Shown here: positions 13,122 through 30,712 of the stretch, in pieces
Layout: every line of letters begins with the position of its first letter
How positions within the stretch are numbered: the first letter of the stretch is position 1
Assembly (NCBI GenBank): GCA_029939505.1
Contig: JAOZSV010000023.1
Coordinates: 2,583-35,704 of the forward strand
Origin: Thiotrichaceae bacterium
GTDB taxonomy: Bacteria; Pseudomonadota; Gammaproteobacteria; Beggiatoales; Beggiatoaceae
Direction of reading: 5' to 3'
Length of the DNA stretch: 33,122 nucleotides
Notes under the pieces: generated by a model
Told to the model about the DNA's origin: nothing
What the model saw: only the letters and a program-made list of their open reading frames with translations
Databases searched by the model: none
Made by a program: the position numbers and the translations under genes

Positions 13122-13527
13122 ATTCTAAATATCCGAAAATTTATGGTTCAGTACATAGATGTTCAGATAAATAATGATCATGATTTATCTGACAATCTAT
13201 AGTATGAGTTTTAGACTTTCGTTTCCGTATAAATTGCGAGGCGAAATGACGCGCAATTTAACGTTGAGAACAGAAATCTCGGATTGACGCACTGAAAAAT
13301 TAAATTCATTGTAAATCAGTTGCTTAAAAATTCACGACTCAATCAAGTGAAATTTAAAACAAATAAAATCAAATAGTTATATATTTTATGCGTCAGTTTT
13401 AAAATTGATCAGTTCATTTTTTTATGGTGATAATTAGCAATGTTGATTTTAAAATAATAATAATTTAATATAAATAACAATTATTTTATTGATTACTTTT
13501 AATATTAAATATTGGGAACTAAAAAAA

Positions 13528-14166
13528 ATGTCTATACGTCGTTTACCTGTCTATTTATTATTAGACTGTTCCTCATCTATGATTGGACAACCCATTGAAC
13601 AAGTTAGACAAGGGCTCAGGGCTTTATTAGACGACTTGAATACCGAACCAATGGCTATCGAAACAGTCTATTTATCGGTTATTACATTTGATAGCACTGC
13701 TCAACAATTAATGCCCTTAACAGAATTGATGCAGTTTAAAGAGCCACAACTTAAAGCACGCGGTGCAACAGCATTAGGAGCCGCTTTGCGCTTATTAAAG
13801 GATTGTTTAGAGAAAGAAGTCCGTCAAAATACCGAAGATCAAAAAGGCGATTGGAAACCACTCGTCTTTTTGATGACTGATGGTATGCCAACAGATTCTT
13901 GGAAAGAAGTAGCAGATGACATCAAAATACAAAAGAGGGCTAACTTAATTGCTTTTGCAGCGGGATTAGAGGCGGATGTGAGCAATTTAAAATGTATCAC
14001 GGATATTGTTTTAAAATCTGATGAACTTTCACCTGGTGCCTTGAAAGCCTTTTTCCAATGGATGAGTCAATCTATTTTGCGTACTGGTCAAAGTGTGCAA
14101 GTCATGGCACAAGGCATACCAGTTGATTTGCCGCCACCGCCACCGCAAATTCAGATTGTGCCATGA
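13528..14166 (+). CDS. VWA-domain protein, TerY-like
   Basis: This 212-aa cytoplasmic protein is essentially one von Willebrand factor A domain. The metal-ion-dependent adhesion motif DCSSS begins at Asp13 (VYLLLDCSSSM). The conserved threonine region ARGATALGAAL and the later MTDGMPTD complete the site. Together with the WKPLVFLMTDG strand and a short Pro-rich tail, this matches TerY-like proteins from tellurite/stress clusters. TerY usually occurs with a PP2C phosphatase and a kinase (the TerY-P triad). Neither is adjacent here, so the function is uncertain. The start at 13528 is preferred over an ATG 39 bp earlier because MSIRRLPVYLLLD is the usual N-terminus and GGGA precedes it. Confidence 0.8.
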   Translation: MSIRRLPVYLLLDCSSSMIGQPIEQVRQGLRALLDDLNTEPMAIETVYLSVITFDSTAQQLMPLTELMQFKEPQLKARGATALGAALRLLKDCLEKEVRQNTEDQKGDWKPLVFLMTDGMPTDSWKEVADDIKIQKRANLIAFAAGLEADVSNLKCITDIVLKSDELSPGALKAFFQWMSQSILRTGQSVQVMAQGIPVDLPPPPPQIQIVP

Positions 14167-14535: not shown

Positions 14536-15195
14536 ATGATTAAATTAATTTTTTCAAAAATCACGCAAGATGATCTCAAACAATTTGTCAAGATTCAAGA
14601 ACAAGGTATTGCCACTTACCCTTGGACTCAAGTTGACACGATTTCCATTAATGAAAAGGAACAAAATTATTTAGAAGCAATTAAGTCACATTTGTTTAAT
14701 TATGACACCCACCTAATGAATGAAGCGACAATTTGGGCGAGGGCTATTTATCCTTTGTTATTATTATCAGAACAGGGTAATATTCAAGCTTGGGCTGAGG
14801 TACCTTTAAAAGCACAATATGGTCAATTTGAATTGGAAGGCGTTGTAGATGGTGCATTAGGAAAATGTGTCAGCGGTTTTCTGGAAACACCTTATTTAGT
14901 CATTGTAGAAGCCAAACGTGGACTGGAAAACGAAAATCCCCTTTTTCAACTTTATGGTCAACTTTTAGCGGCGGCTTATTTGAATTGGAAAGATGATGGC
15001 AATGATCCCCAAACGATTTTTGGTGCTTATACCATTGCAGATACTTGGAAGTTTTTAAAAGCAGAAATTGAGGGGATAGATACTGATCAAACGCAAATGC
15101 GTATTGAAGCTTCAAGAGAATATGTTGAAAAACTGGAGACTGAAACCATTTTTAAAATTTTGAAAGGATTTGTTAGAATGGTGAATGAAAAATAA
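14536..15195 (+). CDS. Predicted PD-(D/E)XK nuclease-fold protein
   Basis: This 219-aa soluble protein has no signal peptide. The segment ELEGVVDGALG (Asp105), a short spacer and LVIVEAKRG (Glu125, Lys127) form the D...ExK signature of the PD-(D/E)XK nuclease superfamily. They are followed by FQLYGQLLAAAY, with the Gln and Tyr of a typical Q-x-x-x-Y helix. The N-terminal half is helical and the C-terminus (YVEKLETETIFKIL) could mediate dimerisation. Similar stand-alone proteins are common in filamentous cyanobacteria and Beggiatoaceae, as far as I recall. No methyltransferase, helicase or other partner is next to it, so a restriction, repair or housekeeping role cannot be chosen. The start follows a moderate AGGAAC at suitable distance. 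Confidence 0.6.
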   Translation: MIKLIFSKITQDDLKQFVKIQEQGIATYPWTQVDTISINEKEQNYLEAIKSHLFNYDTHLMNEATIWARAIYPLLLLSEQGNIQAWAEVPLKAQYGQFELEGVVDGALGKCVSGFLETPYLVIVEAKRGLENENPLFQLYGQLLAAAYLNWKDDGNDPQTIFGAYTIADTWKFLKAEIEGIDTDQTQMRIEASREYVEKLETETIFKILKGFVRMVNEK

Positions 15196-21761: not shown

Positions 21762-21830
21762 CTACCTGGCTGAAGTGGATACCCAGTGGTGGGAAGCAGC
21801 GTTACCAATAAACAAAAAGGAAGCAATAAA

Positions 21831-22592
21831 ATGAGTATAGGTATATTTTCATATATCGGAACATCGTATGTTAAGGCGGCGAAAAATACATTTTATTTCA
21901 CAAAGCATGCCCCATTTTTGCTGAAACCATTTGCATTGGCATTCGCTCTATTTTATTCAGTTATTCTATTGATTATTAGTCTTTTTTTCTATGCTCTAAT
22001 TATCTTAGATTGGTTAGGCAATCTAACTGATACATTGAGAAAGGGTTTGCTTAATGCAATAGATAGACAGAGCAGGAAGATAAATAATGGCATTCTGTCA
22101 TTTATCTTAAGTCCAATAATTATTGTTCTATTGTCACCGTTGTTTTTGCTTTCGGTGTTCATCCCAAAGGTATCAAGTACTCCAGTCGAGGATTTTGCTG
22201 TCAATGAAATATCCGATATTTTTAGTGGGGCTGGTGCCTTTAAACGAATTAACAAGATTATATGGGGTGCAGCAAGAAGGTTATTTAGATATGTAGGAAA
22301 TACCAACCTTATACTTATGCCAATTTTAGCAATCATAGCAATTTTGTACTCAATTGTTTTAATAGCCGTTGGCTCAATATTTGCTATTTTGATACCTCTT
22401 GATTGGATAAGTTATTTGATTGAATCAATACGACAAAGAATTGTTAGTTTTACAAATAATCAGCAGCAAAAAATACGATATAGTGGTAGCTCATTTCTCA
22501 TTGCTCCCGTTTTATTAGCGGTTTTAGCACCCCTATTTCTTTTGCTTTTGATTATTCCAAAGTTTACAACACAGCTAGATGTTGAAGTGTAA
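21831..22592 (+). CDS. Polytopic membrane protein with internal duplication, unknown function
   Basis: This 253-aa protein belongs to no family I recognise. It consists of two similar halves. Residues about 31-113 contain FYSVILLIISLFFYALIILD, then WLGNLTDTLR and SPLFLLSVFIPK. Residues about 159-244 contain ILYSIVLIAVGSIFAILIPL, then DWISYLIESIRQ and APLFLLLLIIPK. Each half thus has two hydrophobic stretches, a conserved LDW, an amphipathic segment with basic residues and a hydrophobic stretch ending in IPK. A short polar linker (VEDFAVNEISDIFSGAG) joins them. GGAAG lies about 8 bases before the ATG at 21831, which is preferred over an ATG 45 bp upstream. It follows nfeD and slipin on the same strand after about 130 bp. 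A role with them is only a positional suggestion. Confidence 0.65.
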   Translation: MSIGIFSYIGTSYVKAAKNTFYFTKHAPFLLKPFALAFALFYSVILLIISLFFYALIILDWLGNLTDTLRKGLLNAIDRQSRKINNGILSFILSPIIIVLLSPLFLLSVFIPKVSSTPVEDFAVNEISDIFSGAGAFKRINKIIWGAARRLFRYVGNTNLILMPILAIIAILYSIVLIAVGSIFAILIPLDWISYLIESIRQRIVSFTNNQQQKIRYSGSSFLIAPVLLAVLAPLFLLLLIIPKFTTQLDVEV

Positions 22593-22627
22593 ACAAGCAT
22601 CACCTTGGGTTAAATGTGGAATTGTAA

Positions 22628-22663
22628 GGTGGGTTTCGCTATAGCGAAACTCACCTTTTTTTT
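22628..22663 (+). terminator. Rho-independent terminator
   Basis: GGTGGGTTTCGCT pairs with AGCGAAACTCACC with one mismatch and a minimal loop, followed by eight T residues. It stands 36 bp after the stop of the duplicated membrane protein gene and is the most conventional terminator in the window. Confidence 0.8.
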
Positions 22664-23218: not shown

Positions 23219-23557
23219 TCACAATAATGGTCTTGTAACCCGTATTAATTGATTGTCTAATTGCTGTACCTCTCTAATTTGTTCATCAATTCTTTGAGCT
23301 AATTGTTGGTAATCCTTATTGTGAGTACATGAAATAATGCCGCTATGCTCATTATTTGTATGTAGCCTGTAAAAATCCTTGTGATTGTGCGTCAGTATCA
23401 CACGCATTTCAGAAACGGCATAAACCAATTGCGCTTTATCATCAGTTCCTTTTCCAGCTTTTCCGATTTCTTGAGTGGTTTTGATGTCATACCCCATTTT
23501 CCTTAATATTTTGACAGCAAGGTAATTAAAATCTTCATCGGCATAAAGTTTAATCAT
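23219..23557 (-). CDS. DUF5615-type PIN-like toxin
   Basis: This 112-aa protein starts MIKLYADEDFNYLAVKILRK, the characteristic N-terminus of DUF5615 PIN-like proteins, with the acidic ADED metal-binding cluster. Further acidic positions are in GTDDKAQLVYA and THNHKDFYRL, where H-x-x-D-F is typical. The predicted activity is Mg2+-dependent RNA cleavage, by family inference. It overlaps the upstream antitoxin gene by 4 bp (ATGA), a normal toxin-antitoxin coupling. Length is usual and no frameshift is present. The target RNA is unknown. Confidence 0.8.
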   Translation of the reverse strand: MIKLYADEDFNYLAVKILRKMGYDIKTTQEIGKAGKGTDDKAQLVYAVSEMRVILTHNHKDFYRLHTNNEHSGIISCTHNKDYQQLAQRIDEQIREVQQLDNQLIRVTRPLL

Positions 23558-23922
23558 AAACCATTCTCTTCTTCAATTTCTTGATCTATTTCATTTTGAT
23601 AAAGAGCATAATACTTCCATGCTGCTTTTAAATCCGATTGCTTAAGACTCGGATAAACTTCTAAAAGTTCGCTATCAGACGTGTCTTCTTGCCGATATTG
23701 TACCAAGCTCCTGACAGGAATGCGGGTATTGCGAATATGTGGACTACCGCCACAGATTCCCTGCGTTTTTTGAACCAAGTGGTTATCCTTGTTTTGAGGA
23801 TATACATCTTGAAAAACACGATTTTTGAGAGATAAAACGAAATCTAGCGTTTTTTCAAGTTTTTCGATTGAAAGATTATGAATTTCGTGTAAGAGTCTAT
23901 TTTCTATTTCAACTTGATTCAT
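23554..23922 (-). CDS. DUF433 antitoxin with extended N-terminus
   Basis: This 122-aa protein has a DUF433 domain at about residues 52-108 (GICGGSPHIRNTRIPVRSLV, then SELLEVYPSLKQSDLKAAW), a helix-turn-helix-like DNA-binding antitoxin fold. The first 35 residues (ENRLLHEIHNLSIEKLEKTL, then DFVLSLKN) resemble a DUF2281-type N-terminus, so it seems to be a fused or extended antitoxin. AGGGAGGA lies 8-9 bases before the start, the best ribosome-binding site in this part of the window. It precedes and overlaps the DUF5615 toxin gene. Autoregulation of the pair is likely by analogy with type II systems. Confidence 0.8.
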   Translation of the reverse strand: MNQVEIENRLLHEIHNLSIEKLEKTLDFVLSLKNRVFQDVYPQNKDNHLVQKTQGICGGSPHIRNTRIPVRSLVQYRQEDTSDSELLEVYPSLKQSDLKAAWKYYALYQNEIDQEIEEENGL

Positions 23923-24556: not shown

Positions 24557-27500
24557 ATGATGAACATTCCCAATTACAAAAATATTAAACTCATTTACGA
24601 AAGTAGCAACTCTTTCGTTTTTCGTGCGATAAATAAGGATAATCAACAGGTTATCCTCAAGATGTTTAAAGAAAATTATCCATCGCCTGAGGAATTGACG
24701 CGCTATCAGCAAGAATATGACTTCATGCGCCGCCTAGCCGATTTGGATGGCGTTATCAAAGTCTATCGCCTCGAAAAATATCAAAAAACACAAATGATAT
24801 GTTTAGAAGATTTTGGTGGCGAGTCTTTAAAGTATTGGCTAACAATGCGTTCCTTTAGTCTGGATGAATTACTTCGCCTTGCTATTCGTCTCAGCGATAT
24901 TTTGGAAGAAGTACATAAAAAACATATTATTCATAAGGATATTAATTCCACCAATCTCGTTTGGAATCCTGTGACTGATGTACTGAAAATAATTGATTTT
25001 GGCATTTCCACCAAATTATCACAGCAACAGATCACGTTTAAAAACCCCAATTTTTTAGAGGGAACTTTAGCCTACATCTCCCCAGAACAAACGGGGCGGA
25101 TGAATTGCGCTTTGGATTATCGCACTGATTTTTACTCACTGGGGGCAACGCTTTACGAATTATTTACTGGCGTTGTGCCTTTTAATGCGACAGAACCGAT
25201 GGAATTAATTCATTGTCATCTCGCCAAACAACCCGTGCCGCCTTTTGAATTGATGAAAAGGGCAAAAGAACAGGATTTGATAAAAGGGGTAAAAAAAGCG
25301 ATTTCTGCTATCATATTGAAATTATTAGAAAAAACAGCAGAAGATCGCTATCAAAGTCTCTATGGACTTAAAACCGATCTTCAGGAATGTCAGCTTGCTT
25401 TGTCTGAAGGTAAAACACTTGACTCTTTTACTCCGGCTCAAAACGACATTTCTGCTTCCTTTCAAATTCCGGAAAAACTTTATGGGCGTGAATATGAAAT
25501 AAAAACCTTACTCGCCGCTTTTGAGCGCGTGGCGGGCAGTTCCTCATCAACAAGGAGCCAAACCTCAGAGGTTTCTAAAACCTCTGAGGTTTTTCGTGAA
25601 ATGAGCCAAACCGAGGTTTTTCCTGAAATGAGCCAAACCTCAGAGGTTTCTAAAACCTCTGAGGTTTTTCGTGAAATGAGCCAAACCGAGGTTTTTCCTG
25701 AAATGAGCCAAACCTCAGAGGTTTCTAAAACCTCTGAGGTTTTTCGTGATAAAAGCGAAATCCTGTTAATCACTGGTGATTCAGGTATTGGTAAATCGGC
25801 ATTGGTTAAAGAAGTGTATAAATTGCTCACAAAAAAACGGGGCTATTTTATCACCGGAATTTTTGACACATTTCAACGCAATATTCCTTACAGTGCTATC
25901 GTTACCGCTTTTGAAGAATTAGTGCAACAACTCCTGACGGAAGGCGAAACGCAATTAGCACAATGGAAAGAGAAATTATTAGCCGCCCTGGGTAGTAATG
26001 GACAAGTCATTATTGATGTCATTCCAAAGATGGAACGGATTATTGGGCAACAACCGGCTCTCCCTACCTTAGAAATAACAGAATCTAAAAACCGTTTTAA
26101 CTTGGTTTTTCAAAACTTTATACGGGTATTTTGTCAACCTGATCATCCCTTAGTGATTTTTTTGGACAACTTGCAATGGGTAGATTCGGCAAGCCTGAAA
26201 TTATTAGAAATGGTGATGATGGATAGGGATACTACCACCCTATTCTTGATAGGGGCTTATCGGGATGTTGAACCAAATCATCCTTTAATGATGGCGTTTG
26301 ACGTACTCCATAAAGAAAACGTGATCATTAATCAAATCACCTTAAAGCCTTTAACTTGTGAAGAGATTAATCAATTAATTACAGAGAGTTTGCATCAAAA
26401 AGCAGTGGATTCACTAACCAACGTGGTGATGCGTAAAACAAAGGGCAATCCGTTTTTTGTGAATCAATTTCTTCACAAATTGGTTGAAAACAAATTACTC
26501 CATTTTGTTTCTAAAAGAGGCACTTGGGAATGGGATTTAGAAAAAAATGAGGCGGTGAATATCACCGATAATGTGGTGGATTTGATGATTTGTCAATTGA
26601 AAAAATTGCCTCAATCAGCGCAGCACGTTTTACGTTTAGCGGCTTGTGTGGGTAATTATTTTGATTTGGATACCTTATCTTTCATTTATAAAAAGTCGGT
26701 TTCCGACACTTTCAATGATTTGATGCCGGCGATGATGGAAGGAATTATTTTATCCACCACACAATTGGAAATCATGATTAAAGAGGAGAATTCGCCTTAT
26801 ACGATTCGCCATTTCCAATTTCTCCATCATCGTTTTCAACAGGCGGCTTATGCCCTGGTTGATGAGGTTAAGAAAAAAGCGGTGCATTTACAAATAGGGC
26901 GTTTGTACCTTCAAAATATCCCAGACGAAGCGTTAGAAGAACAAATTTTTCATATTGTTGGACAACTTAATCTTGGCTTTGAATTGGTTGAGGAAGATTC
27001 ACTGCAATTAAAAATGGTTCAATTGAATTTGAAGGCGGGAGAAAAAGCGAAAGAGGCCACAGCTTATGCTGCTGCTAAACAATATTTTAGCTTTGGGCGG
27101 AAGATATTGCAGAGTCAACTTTGGGAAGAGCATTATGACTTAACTTTTGCTTTATACAAGGAGGAAGCAGAAGTGGAATATCTCAATGGTCATTTTGAGC
27201 AGTCAGAGGCTTTGATTCAAGAGATACTGGTTCAGGCTAAATCGCCATTGGAGAAGGTGGAAATTTATAGAATGCTTGTGGTTCAATATACCATGAAAGG
27301 GGAATATGTCGAAGCGGTTAAAATCGGGAGAGAGGGGTTACGGTGCTTAAATATTGATTTACCAGAAAGCGATTTCAAAACCGCTTTTAAAAAAGAAATG
27401 GCTAAAGTCAATCTGGGCAACAGAACGATTGGCTCACTGATTCACCAAGATAAAGTCACCAATCGGGAAATTATCCTTGCCATCAGATTATTAAGATATA

Positions 27501-30500
27501 TGGCTATCCCCGCTTATTTTTTTGATCAGGATATCTGGTTTCTTCTGACGATGAAAAATGTCAATTTATGTCTAACGTATGGACAAGTACCAGAAACGCC
27601 TCCCATTTTCTGTGCTTATGGTATTATACTCGGCACTATTTCCAGAGATTATCAAGCGGCTTATCAATTTGGTTTGGTTGCTATTGAAATCAGTGAAAAG
27701 CTCAATCGTTACAAATGCCAAACCAAAGTCATGATGGGTGGTTTTTTGATGCCCTGGGTAAAACATATCAAATATAGCATAGCGGTGATTGATGAGGGGT
27801 ATCAAGCGGGGCTGGAATCGGGTGATTTACAATATGTTGGTTATTTGATGATTTTGCAGCTTTTTAATCGGTTCTATCAAGGTGACAATTTGCAAAAGAT
27901 TTTATCAGAGATTTCAAAGGGGTTGTCTTTTAACAGAAAAGCCAAAAATCCATTTCCAACGAATCTGATATTAGGCTTTCAAATGTTCGTTTTCAATTTA
28001 ACGGGATTGACAGAAAGTCGAGAAGATTTTCATAATGAAGACATGAGTGAAGCGCAATATTTGGAGCAGAACAAAAAACATCAAAACATTCTATGTTACT
28101 GTTTTATATTGAAATCTCAAATCTTTTATCTCTATGGTGAACCTGCCAGCGCAATTCAGTGCGCTATCGAAGCCGAAAAGCGACTTGATTTGATTCGTGG
28201 CGTTGTCACGCTCGTCGATAATCACTTTTATTATTCACTGAGTTTACTTGCTCTCTACCCCACCGTTTCTGCGGAAAAACAGGTAGAATATTGGAATAAA
28301 GTCGAAGAGAAGCAAAAGCAGATGAAAATCTGGGTTGATCATGCTCAAGAAAATTTCTTACACAAATATCAATTAGTCGCTGCTGAAATCGCCCGTATTT
28401 CTGGCAAAGATTCAGAAGCGGTTTTTCTCTATACCCAAGCGATAGCTTCTGCTAAGAAAAATGGATTTGTCCAAGATGAAGCATTGGCTAATGAATTAGT
28501 TGCCCAATTTTGGTTAGCTAAAGGCTTTGAGCAGTATGCCAATATCCATCTCTGCGAAGCGCATTATGCTTACCAGCAGTGGGGGGCAGTGGCTAAGATT
28601 GCGGATTTTGAGGAAAAATACCCCTTGTTAGCACTATCCTCAACGCCAGTTTCAACGCCAGTTTCAACTTCCACCGTTTTAAGAACGCAAAATTTTTCGC
28701 TATCGACTCAAACGACTTCCAGTTACTTAGACTTAAATAGTATGGTGAAAGCGTCTAATGCCCTGTTAGGAGAAATCGTTTTGAGTCGTTTATTAGAAAA
28801 AATGATGCAGATTGTCATTGAAAATGCTGGGGCAGAAAAGGGCTTTTTGCTACTACCACAACAAGATAAGTGGTTTATTGAAGCGGAAGGGCATGTTAAT
28901 AGCACTGATGTGACTGTCTTGCAATCCATCGCGCTTGAAAAAAGTGAGCAAGTTTCGGGCAATATTATTCACTATGTTGCTCATACTCAAGAAGAGATCG
29001 TGTTGCACGATGCCACAGAATCTAGCCACCATTTTACCCACGATCCGTACCTCGTCAAATTCTGCCCAAAATCGGTATTATGTGCGCCGTTGATCAATCA
29101 AGGAGAGTTAACAGGTATTTTGTATTTAGAGAACAACTTGATGACAGGCGCATTTACACAAGAAAGGTTGGAGGTGTTAAATCTGTTATCCTCGCAAATC
29201 GCGCTCTCTATTAAAAATTCATTATTATACAATAACTTAGAAGACAATGTTGCAGAACGTACTCGTGAACTGGCGCAAGAAATCGTCGTCAGAAAAAGCG
29301 CAGAGAAAGCGGCTAAAGTGGCGAACAAAGCGAAAAGTGCTTTTTTGGCGAATATGAGCCATGAACTTCGCACGCCACTTAATGCGATTTTGGGCTTTGC
29401 CCAAATTATGACTCGTAGCAAAAAACTTGATCATGAAAACCAAGAAAATATCGGTATTATCAGCCGTAGCGGCGAACATCTTCTGACACTCATTAATCAA
29501 GTACTTGATCTGACAAAGATTGAGGCGGAACGGATTACCCTTAATGAAATCCAGTTTGATTTATACCGTTTGTTGGAAGATTTAGAAGATATGTTCAATC
29601 TTAAAGCAGATGATAAGCATTTACAATTGATTTTTGAGCGTGAACCATCCGTTCCACAATATCTTCTTGGTGATGAAGTGAAATTACGGCAGGTGTTGAT
29701 TAATTTGCTGAATAATGCCCTTAAATTTACTCAAGAGGGCGGTGTGATAGTGCGTGTGGCGGTTTCTGAAGAAGGCAAGTCCATTTCTCAACTTCACTTT
29801 GAAGTCGAAGATACGGGACCCGGGATTGCATCCAATGAGTTAGATCAACTTTTTGAAGCCTTTGTGCAAACGAGTACAGGCAAACAAACTTCTGAGGGAA
29901 CCGGCTTGGGTTTAACGATTAGTCGTCAATTTGTCCAATTAATGGGCGGAGAGATGATTGTGAAGAGTGAAGTTGGGCGTGGCACGACGTTTGAGTTTAG
30001 CCTGCCATGTCAATTAGCGGATGCGAGTGAACTTAAAAAAACGACTTCTAAAAAACAAGTGATCGCTTTGGTGCCAAATCAACCCCGCTATCGGATTTTG
30101 GTTGTAGATGATAAATGGGCAAGTCGGCAATTGTTGATCAAACTGCTTAGTCCTCTTGGCTTTGAGATTCAGGCGGCAGAAAATGGTCAAGAAGCCATTG
30201 AGATTTGGGAAAAATGGCAACCACATTTGATTTGGATGGATATGCGGATGCCAGTGATGGATGGCTATGAGGCGACTCAGCGGATTAAGGCTCAACTTTC
30301 AGGACAAGCAACGGCTATCATCGCCCTGACAGCCAGTGCTTTAGAAGAAGAACGGGCAATTGTTCTTGACGCGGGTTGTGATGACATGTTACGGAAACCC
30401 TTTCAGGAAAGCAATATTTTTGAAGTCATGCACAAACATCTTGGGGTGCGTTATATTTATGAAGAGGAGATTGCCGAACCAGAAAACGAGGAAGAGATTA

Positions 30501-30712
30501 AAATCCCAAATCTCGCGGCTCAAATGGCTAAATTACCAGAATCTCTATTCGTACCACTTCAAAATGCCATCGAATGCGCGGATTTACAAGCCATGAAGCC
30601 GCTTATTGAGCAGATAAGTGAAAACGATAAACCATTGGCTAAGACATTGAATAAATTGGCGAAGAATTTTCGTTTTGATATACTTCAAGAAATTCTTGAA
30701 GAAATGGTTTAA
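24557..30712 (+). CDS. Trifunctional Ser/Thr kinase / AAA ATPase / GAF hybrid histidine kinase
   Basis: This 2051-aa cytoplasmic signalling protein has no membrane segment. The Ser/Thr kinase domain (about 8-270) has Lys35, HKDINSTN with Asp128, DFG at 147 and SPEQTGRMN. An AAA/NACHT-like ATPase (about 310-700) has Walker A GDSGIGKS at 407 and Walker B VIFLDNLQWVD near 535. A long TPR-like helical region (about 850-1380) is followed by a GAF domain (about 1408-1550), a coiled coil and a HisKA domain with His1602 (MSHELRTPLNAI). The HATPase domain (about 1705-1817) has NALKF, DTGPGIA and GTGLGL. A receiver domain (about 1845-1958) has Asp1895, and a short helical tail ends the protein. This architecture is the cyanobacterial Hstk-type family. 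A 25-residue repeat at 334-398, derived from a palindromic DNA element, interrupts the ATPase just before Walker A. The start may be either of two adjacent ATGs. The stimulus is unknown. Confidence 0.92.
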   Translation: MMNIPNYKNIKLIYESSNSFVFRAINKDNQQVILKMFKENYPSPEELTRYQQEYDFMRRLADLDGVIKVYRLEKYQKTQMICLEDFGGESLKYWLTMRSFSLDELLRLAIRLSDILEEVHKKHIIHKDINSTNLVWNPVTDVLKIIDFGISTKLSQQQITFKNPNFLEGTLAYISPEQTGRMNCALDYRTDFYSLGATLYELFTGVVPFNATEPMELIHCHLAKQPVPPFELMKRAKEQDLIKGVKKAISAIILKLLEKTAEDRYQSLYGLKTDLQECQLALSEGKTLDSFTPAQNDISASFQIPEKLYGREYEIKTLLAAFERVAGSSSSTRSQTSEVSKTSEVFREMSQTEVFPEMSQTSEVSKTSEVFREMSQTEVFPEMSQTSEVSKTSEVFRDKSEILLITGDSGIGKSALVKEVYKLLTKKRGYFITGIFDTFQRNIPYSAIVTAFEELVQQLLTEGETQLAQWKEKLLAALGSNGQVIIDVIPKMERIIGQQPALPTLEITESKNRFNLVFQNFIRVFCQPDHPLVIFLDNLQWVDSASLKLLEMVMMDRDTTTLFLIGAYRDVEPNHPLMMAFDVLHKENVIINQITLKPLTCEEINQLITESLHQKAVDSLTNVVMRKTKGNPFFVNQFLHKLVENKLLHFVSKRGTWEWDLEKNEAVNITDNVVDLMICQLKKLPQSAQHVLRLAACVGNYFDLDTLSFIYKKSVSDTFNDLMPAMMEGIILSTTQLEIMIKEENSPYTIRHFQFLHHRFQQAAYALVDEVKKKAVHLQIGRLYLQNIPDEALEEQIFHIVGQLNLGFELVEEDSLQLKMVQLNLKAGEKAKEATAYAAAKQYFSFGRKILQSQLWEEHYDLTFALYKEEAEVEYLNGHFEQSEALIQEILVQAKSPLEKVEIYRMLVVQYTMKGEYVEAVKIGREGLRCLNIDLPESDFKTAFKKEMAKVNLGNRTIGSLIHQDKVTNREIILAIRLLRYMAIPAYFFDQDIWFLLTMKNVNLCLTYGQVPETPPIFCAYGIILGTISRDYQAAYQFGLVAIEISEKLNRYKCQTKVMMGGFLMPWVKHIKYSIAVIDEGYQAGLESGDLQYVGYLMILQLFNRFYQGDNLQKILSEISKGLSFNRKAKNPFPTNLILGFQMFVFNLTGLTESREDFHNEDMSEAQYLEQNKKHQNILCYCFILKSQIFYLYGEPASAIQCAIEAEKRLDLIRGVVTLVDNHFYYSLSLLALYPTVSAEKQVEYWNKVEEKQKQMKIWVDHAQENFLHKYQLVAAEIARISGKDSEAVFLYTQAIASAKKNGFVQDEALANELVAQFWLAKGFEQYANIHLCEAHYAYQQWGAVAKIADFEEKYPLLALSSTPVSTPVSTSTVLRTQNFSLSTQTTSSYLDLNSMVKASNALLGEIVLSRLLEKMMQIVIENAGAEKGFLLLPQQDKWFIEAEGHVNSTDVTVLQSIALEKSEQVSGNIIHYVAHTQEEIVLHDATESSHHFTHDPYLVKFCPKSVLCAPLINQGELTGILYLENNLMTGAFTQERLEVLNLLSSQIALSIKNSLLYNNLEDNVAERTRELAQEIVVRKSAEKAAKVANKAKSAFLANMSHELRTPLNAILGFAQIMTRSKKLDHENQENIGIISRSGEHLLTLINQVLDLTKIEAERITLNEIQFDLYRLLEDLEDMFNLKADDKHLQLIFEREPSVPQYLLGDEVKLRQVLINLLNNALKFTQEGGVIVRVAVSEEGKSISQLHFEVEDTGPGIASNELDQLFEAFVQTSTGKQTSEGTGLGLTISRQFVQLMGGEMIVKSEVGRGTTFEFSLPCQLADASELKKTTSKKQVIALVPNQPRYRILVVDDKWASRQLLIKLLSPLGFEIQAAENGQEAIEIWEKWQPHLIWMDMRMPVMDGYEATQRIKAQLSGQATAIIALTASALEEERAIVLDAGCDDMLRKPFQESNIFEVMHKHLGVRYIYEEEIAEPENEEEIKIPNLAAQMAKLPESLFVPLQNAIECADLQAMKPLIEQISENDKPLAKTLNKLAKNFRFDILQEILEEMV
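25556..25749 (+). repeat. 75-bp in-frame repeat made of palindromes inside the kinase gene
   Basis: Units start at 25556, 25631 and 25706 (the last partial). Each contains AACCTCAGAGGTTT, then CTAAAACCTCTGAGGTTT, a near-perfect palindrome, followed by ACCGAGGTTTTTCC. They read in frame as SQTSEVSKTSEVFREMSQTE plus VFPEM. Copies are identical at DNA level where they overlap. The layout equals the intergenic family E palindromes with CTCAGAG in place of CTGACAG. Confidence 0.95.

Follow-up and report, generated by a model that had tools for sequence, protein, structure and literature searches.

The genes for stomatin and NfeD form an operon, and the part of the published description available to us names no third member (PMC10153343). 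The TerY-P triad consists of a TerY-like vWA protein, a PP2C phosphatase and a Ser/Thr kinase with a C-terminal zinc ribbon, and the available portion of that source names no membrane protein of the kind described below (PMC11090510). EAD systems, in the part of the account at hand, follow the principle of a small helical domain fused to varied C-terminal modules (PMC7159879).

We analysed a 33,122-nucleotide stretch of bacterial DNA (the window), in which a gene for a protein made of two similar units lies 130 bp behind slipin, on the same strand, the two upstream genes being a normal nfeD–slipin pair. The explanation that we favour, at a probability of roughly 45%, is that this protein, in its divergent relatives, provides the membrane output or anchor of a vWA + PP2C (TerY-P-like)/EAD-like switch, and that the window copy is a solo, mobile form standing behind nfeD–slipin by chance.

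A duplicated protein without a named family

The gene and its signals, with unit boundaries taken from an ungapped half-versus-half alignment, are:

21831 to 22592, + strand: open reading frame from the ATG at 21831 to the stop ending at 22592, encoding a predicted two-unit membrane protein of 253 residues
21817 to 21823, + strand: ribosome-binding site AAGGAAG, 7 nt 5' of the ATG, within the stretch conserved in a second genome of the genus (G001)
21840 to 22178, + strand: first unit, residues 4–116
22233 to 22571, + strand: second unit, residues 135–247
22626 to 22657, + strand: terminator-like hairpin with a 14-pair stem and a T run after it, conserved in G001

This is a real gene with a good ribosome-binding site. 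The protein of the G001 copy is 91% identical; between the two genes dN was 0.049 and dS 0.241 (dN/dS ~0.2), which indicates purifying selection on the reading frame. The hairpin bears out the clean terminator seen in the original prediction, and two further similar elements occur on the G001 contig.

Residues 4–116 and 135–247 aligned over 113 residues without gaps, 35 of them identical, with a BLOSUM62 local score of 181. The highest score reached by 2000 uniform shuffles was 63, and shuffles preserving the hydrophobic/polar pattern reached at most 84 (n=2000) and 85 (n=1000). Judged by this alignment, the halves are homologous, as the original prediction had proposed, and the order of elements that it described recurs in both: a basic stretch, a long hydrophobic stretch, LDW (residues 59–61 and 190–192), a basic amphipathic stretch, a second hydrophobic stretch and IPK (residues 111–113 and 242–244). 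Half-versus-half scores in the relatives from G001 (177) and G005 (72) exceeded all 1000 shuffles, and that in G023, the most divergent copy, was marginal (54, equalled by 1 of 1000 shuffles). A profile of the halves, built with these copies included, detected both units in all four full-length copies, so the duplication most likely predates the split of the lineages of the window's genome (G000), G001, G005 and G023. Three columns are invariant among the eight halves: one Phe within the first hydrophobic segment, the LDW Asp and the IPK Pro. A single-unit ancestor was also considered, and the profile of the eight halves found no intact single-unit protein in the 42 genomes of the window's taxonomic family.

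The protein matched no Pfam or PADLOC family, and its best matches in NCBIfam (E 0.42) and PHROGs (E 0.068) were non-significant, in keeping with its earlier description as unrecognised. A PDB sequence search returned EMC7 as the best match, at an E of only 0.51. The protein is a member of a rare family without a name, and clearly exemplifies an internally duplicated membrane protein absent from the family libraries searched.

Membrane arrangement

The two-unit protein has four hydrophobic segments and is probably an integral protein of the inner membrane. Net charge is positive at the N-terminus and in each of the three loops in the window copy, G001 and G005, and the K+R density of the window copy's loops does not alternate as a positive-inside pattern would, so we kept both four crossings and membrane hairpins as possible arrangements. 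AlphaFold models built from the window and L007 rows only were all helical but too weak to use, the full-length protein reaching a pLDDT of 46 and a single unit 57.

Internal duplication is common in transporters. Because it has four hydrophobic segments and, as expected of a duplicated transporter, repeats its membrane unit internally, the protein could be a small transporter or channel whose four transmembrane helices form two parallel units, working independently of signalling genes. We regard this as unlikely: no transporter family was matched, the loop charges lack the alternation just mentioned, and both divergent relatives adjoin signalling modules (see below).

Reticulons and caveolins have hairpin segments that enter and leave the membrane on the cytosolic side. 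A monotopic membrane-shaping or anchoring protein built in this way, its hydrophobic segments dipping in from the cytosolic side and its amphipathic stretches lying on the surface, would accord with the net-positive N-terminus and loops, with first hydrophobic segments of ~27–32 residues and with the prolines that the second segments contain. For segments entering and leaving on one side, only the charges are compatible. No sequence relation to the reticulon or caveolin families was found, the hydrophobic moments of the amphipathic stretches exceed those of shuffles only weakly, loop 1 is net negative in G023, and the models are too weak to lend support. We consider a hairpin protein distinctly unlikely.

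Position behind nfeD and slipin

The original prediction held that the gene could be a third member of the nfeD–slipin unit and had made this depend on relatives lying near those genes. A slipin relative was found in 39 of the 42 genomes at E 1e-30 or better and in 23 at E 3.7e-110 or better. The two-unit gene follows slipin at one of these 23 close loci, solely the window's own, some of the loci stopping near slipin at a contig end; for genomes with slipin near a contig end, a genome-wide search found no full two-unit gene except in G000 and G001. In G001 the two-unit gene lies on contig C73 and the slipin orthologue on C113, and DNA similarity to the window starts only 28 bp before the ATG. 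Membership of an nfeD–slipin operon, for all that the gene stands on the same strand within 130 bp and has a hairpin at its 3' end, is therefore scarcely credible; the relatives of the gene are not near nfeD or slipin. In terms of the operon as described in the available part of the source (PMC10153343), the two upstream genes are such a pair, but the two-unit gene is no conserved part of it. Since the distant relatives adjoin phosphorylation-switch genes instead, the position behind nfeD–slipin looks accidental on comparison of loci. A tempting but wrong operon assignment is thus corrected, and a lead is put in its place.

Distribution and mobility of the gene

A profile search of the 42 family genomes (cut-off E 0.01) gave matches in eight, four of which (G000, G001, G005 and G023) carry full-length copies. 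C-terminal remnants were found in two:

L020, 8229 to 8360: C-terminal remnant in G017
L021, 8673 to 8813: C-terminal remnant in G004, just 5' of a hisD-like gene

An identity of 52% over 46 columns to the C-terminus of the G005 copy led us to retain the G004 match as a remnant. Profile matches in G033 and G028 were set aside as chance, as were a match in G021 lying within another, longer ORF and one in G034 with seven stops. An order-level search, which covered 42 genomes, the same number as the family search, returned identical full-length matches. Matches in 2 of 369 genomes of a class sample and 2 of 398 of a phylum sample were the window's genome (both samples), G023 of the same family and G723. 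The last, 45 residues with a stop, was rejected as chance because unrelated genes surround it, and neither sample held a convincing relative beyond the taxonomic family. Among viral contigs, 349 pattern matches yielded 0 confirmed ones, and the plasmids and phages searched held no relatives. The sole match in a single-protein scan of genome contigs was QNES01000073.1, from a gammaproteobacterial MAG, apparently the same contig as that of the G001 copy.

DNA similarity between the window and G001 that covers the gene is confined to 21803–22663. Because it ends at these two positions, the gene, its ribosome-binding site and its 3' hairpin form a shared cassette. The window copy stands between nfeD–slipin and DUF433/DUF5615 genes, whereas the G001 copy has a HigB-like toxin gene and a likely antitoxin gene before it and a probable MazE-like ORF after it. 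The third genome of the genus is without the gene. Because the flanks differ within the genus, one genome of the genus lacks the gene and two family genomes hold remnants, we regard the gene as mobile; the remnants are signs of repeated gain and loss, and the best reading of the window copy is a solo, mobile form. The same rarity and patchiness, remnants and absence could also mark a lineage-specific gene heading for loss and of no present function. We give this only a slim chance, as dN/dS is low between the two closest copies and both the ribosome-binding site and the 3' hairpin are retained.

A TerB-family gene (L017, 8271–8756, − strand) lies ~5.5 kb from the G001 copy, on the opposite strand and with other genes between. 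The DUF5615 and DUF433 genes of the window (23219–23922, − strand) overlap, a layout resembling that of a toxin–antitoxin pair.

Relatives beside vWA, PP2C and EAD-like genes

In G005 the two-unit gene comes directly after a vWA ORF and a PP2C ORF on the same strand. These two overlap by seven bases, and PP2C is separated from the two-unit gene by 25 or 49 bases, depending on the start chosen. Close PP2C relatives were found at 16 places in 12 of the 42 genomes. Within the stretches examined, a vWA ORF was present at 15 of the 16 loci and an EAD-like ORF, so labelled for its small N-terminal helical domain, at 13, directly after PP2C at 11. A kinase was present in 6 of the 11 longer stretches (L040–L050), that of G020 with weak zinc-ribbon matches near its C-terminus. 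By their gene content, the vWA/PP2C/kinase loci of the taxonomic family have the TerY-P layout. Set against the triad as given in the available part of its description (PMC11090510), the G005 relative stands behind vWA and PP2C genes, and related operons of the family include the kinase; the window copy, however, lacks such neighbours, and no kinase turned up in G005. Relatives of PP2C (E 1e-8) were absent from G000 and G001, and a TerY-P-type kinase (E 1e-20) from G000, G001, G005 (its assembly 87% complete) and G023.

At the PP2C loci the EAD-like domain, which Pfam does not recognise, precedes LRR, FGE-sulfatase, Lcl_C or membrane segments, and proteins combining it with predicted membrane segments are found there repeatedly. 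G005 too has a partial EAD-like match, at the contig start and ~3.8 kb ahead of its PP2C ORF. In G023 the genome's single EAD-like domain is directly upstream of the two-unit membrane ORF, and the contig starts 129 bases ahead of that domain. The ORF with the domain and the membrane ORF overlap, each in its own frame, at a stretch of seven T's. Weakly, at 6.2 bits, a score that 0 of 200 shuffles reached, the tail of the EAD ORF matched positions 16–43 of the unit profile, and the second ORF begins at profile position 45. Connecting the ORFs through an X gave the first unit a score of 27.8 bits, against 17.4 unconnected. Compared with single N-termini, the tail gave a non-significant result (111 of 2000 shuffles reached the best of four). 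The simplest reading of these scores is that G023 would encode one protein in which an EAD-like domain precedes the two units, the one-base shift that divides it being either genuine or an error of the assembly.

The likeness to EAD systems, in the part of their description available (PMC7159879), is that the EAD-like domain is fused to varied modules and, in G023, apparently to the two-unit protein across the shift. In the scheme of Kaur et al. (2020), an EAD-coupled effector carries the small adaptor domain and a core component bears another copy of it. The differences are that no core component is seen with the same domain (in the 27 stretches around PP2C, L024–L050, no vWA, PP2C or kinase ORF was among the EAD-like hits), that the domain escapes Pfam and that the window copy lacks it. 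A similar layout was seen in an alignment (A3) of 11 proteins from ten family genomes including the window's, in which the EAD-like domain precedes several hydrophobic segments; two of these proteins were checked and had no Pfam match. The member from the window's genome is:

L071, 673 to 1812, − strand: A3 protein with an EAD-like domain and hydrophobic segments, on contig C374 of G000

Profile comparison gave a probability of 0.2% that the A3 proteins are kin of the two-unit family, and we rejected them as such.

A proposed membrane module of a phosphorylation switch

Read from the surroundings of the two divergent relatives, the two-unit protein would serve as the membrane output or anchor of a vWA/PP2C-type switch. 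It would be an integral membrane protein whose two tandem units share one order of elements, a basic amphipathic stretch linking the two hydrophobic segments of each. It could be recruited to the switch complex through its operon partners, as in G005, or through a fused EAD-like domain, as in G023, and its activity would follow the phosphorylation state. The window copy would have landed behind nfeD–slipin as a solo gene without switch partners, and because its genome lacks a PP2C relative and a kinase at the thresholds given above, it may act alone or with other partners. The link to TerY-P/EAD-like signalling, carried by only these two relatives, is suggestive but thin. The duplication, the family, the gene neighbourhoods and the profile match of the EAD ORF's tail in G023 are observed; membrane location, recruitment, control by phosphorylation and any action on the membrane are inferred. 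With a vWA–PP2C operon in one genome and an apparent EAD-like fusion in a second, the rare family offers a concrete candidate for a TerY-P-like membrane output. It is doubtful that the module is in addition a new membrane-acting effector of TerY-P/EAD-like stress or defence switches that also spreads from one bacterial chromosome to another as a solo cassette; if so, it might, for example, permeabilise or remodel the inner membrane.

Other genes in the window

The window holds a lone vWA gene (13525–14163, + strand; Pfam VWA, E 1.1e-12), which presumably is TerY-like, ~7.7 kb before the two-unit gene and on the same strand. It has no recognised PP2C or kinase gene adjoining it, and the next ORF (14536–15195) has a PD-(D/E)XK-like PADLOC match. 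A protein of 2051 residues (24557–30712, + strand) combines a Ser/Thr kinase-like N-terminus with a hybrid histidine kinase C-terminus and carries several near-identical short repeats near residues 330–400 (SEVSKTSEVFREMSQTEVFPEMSQT).
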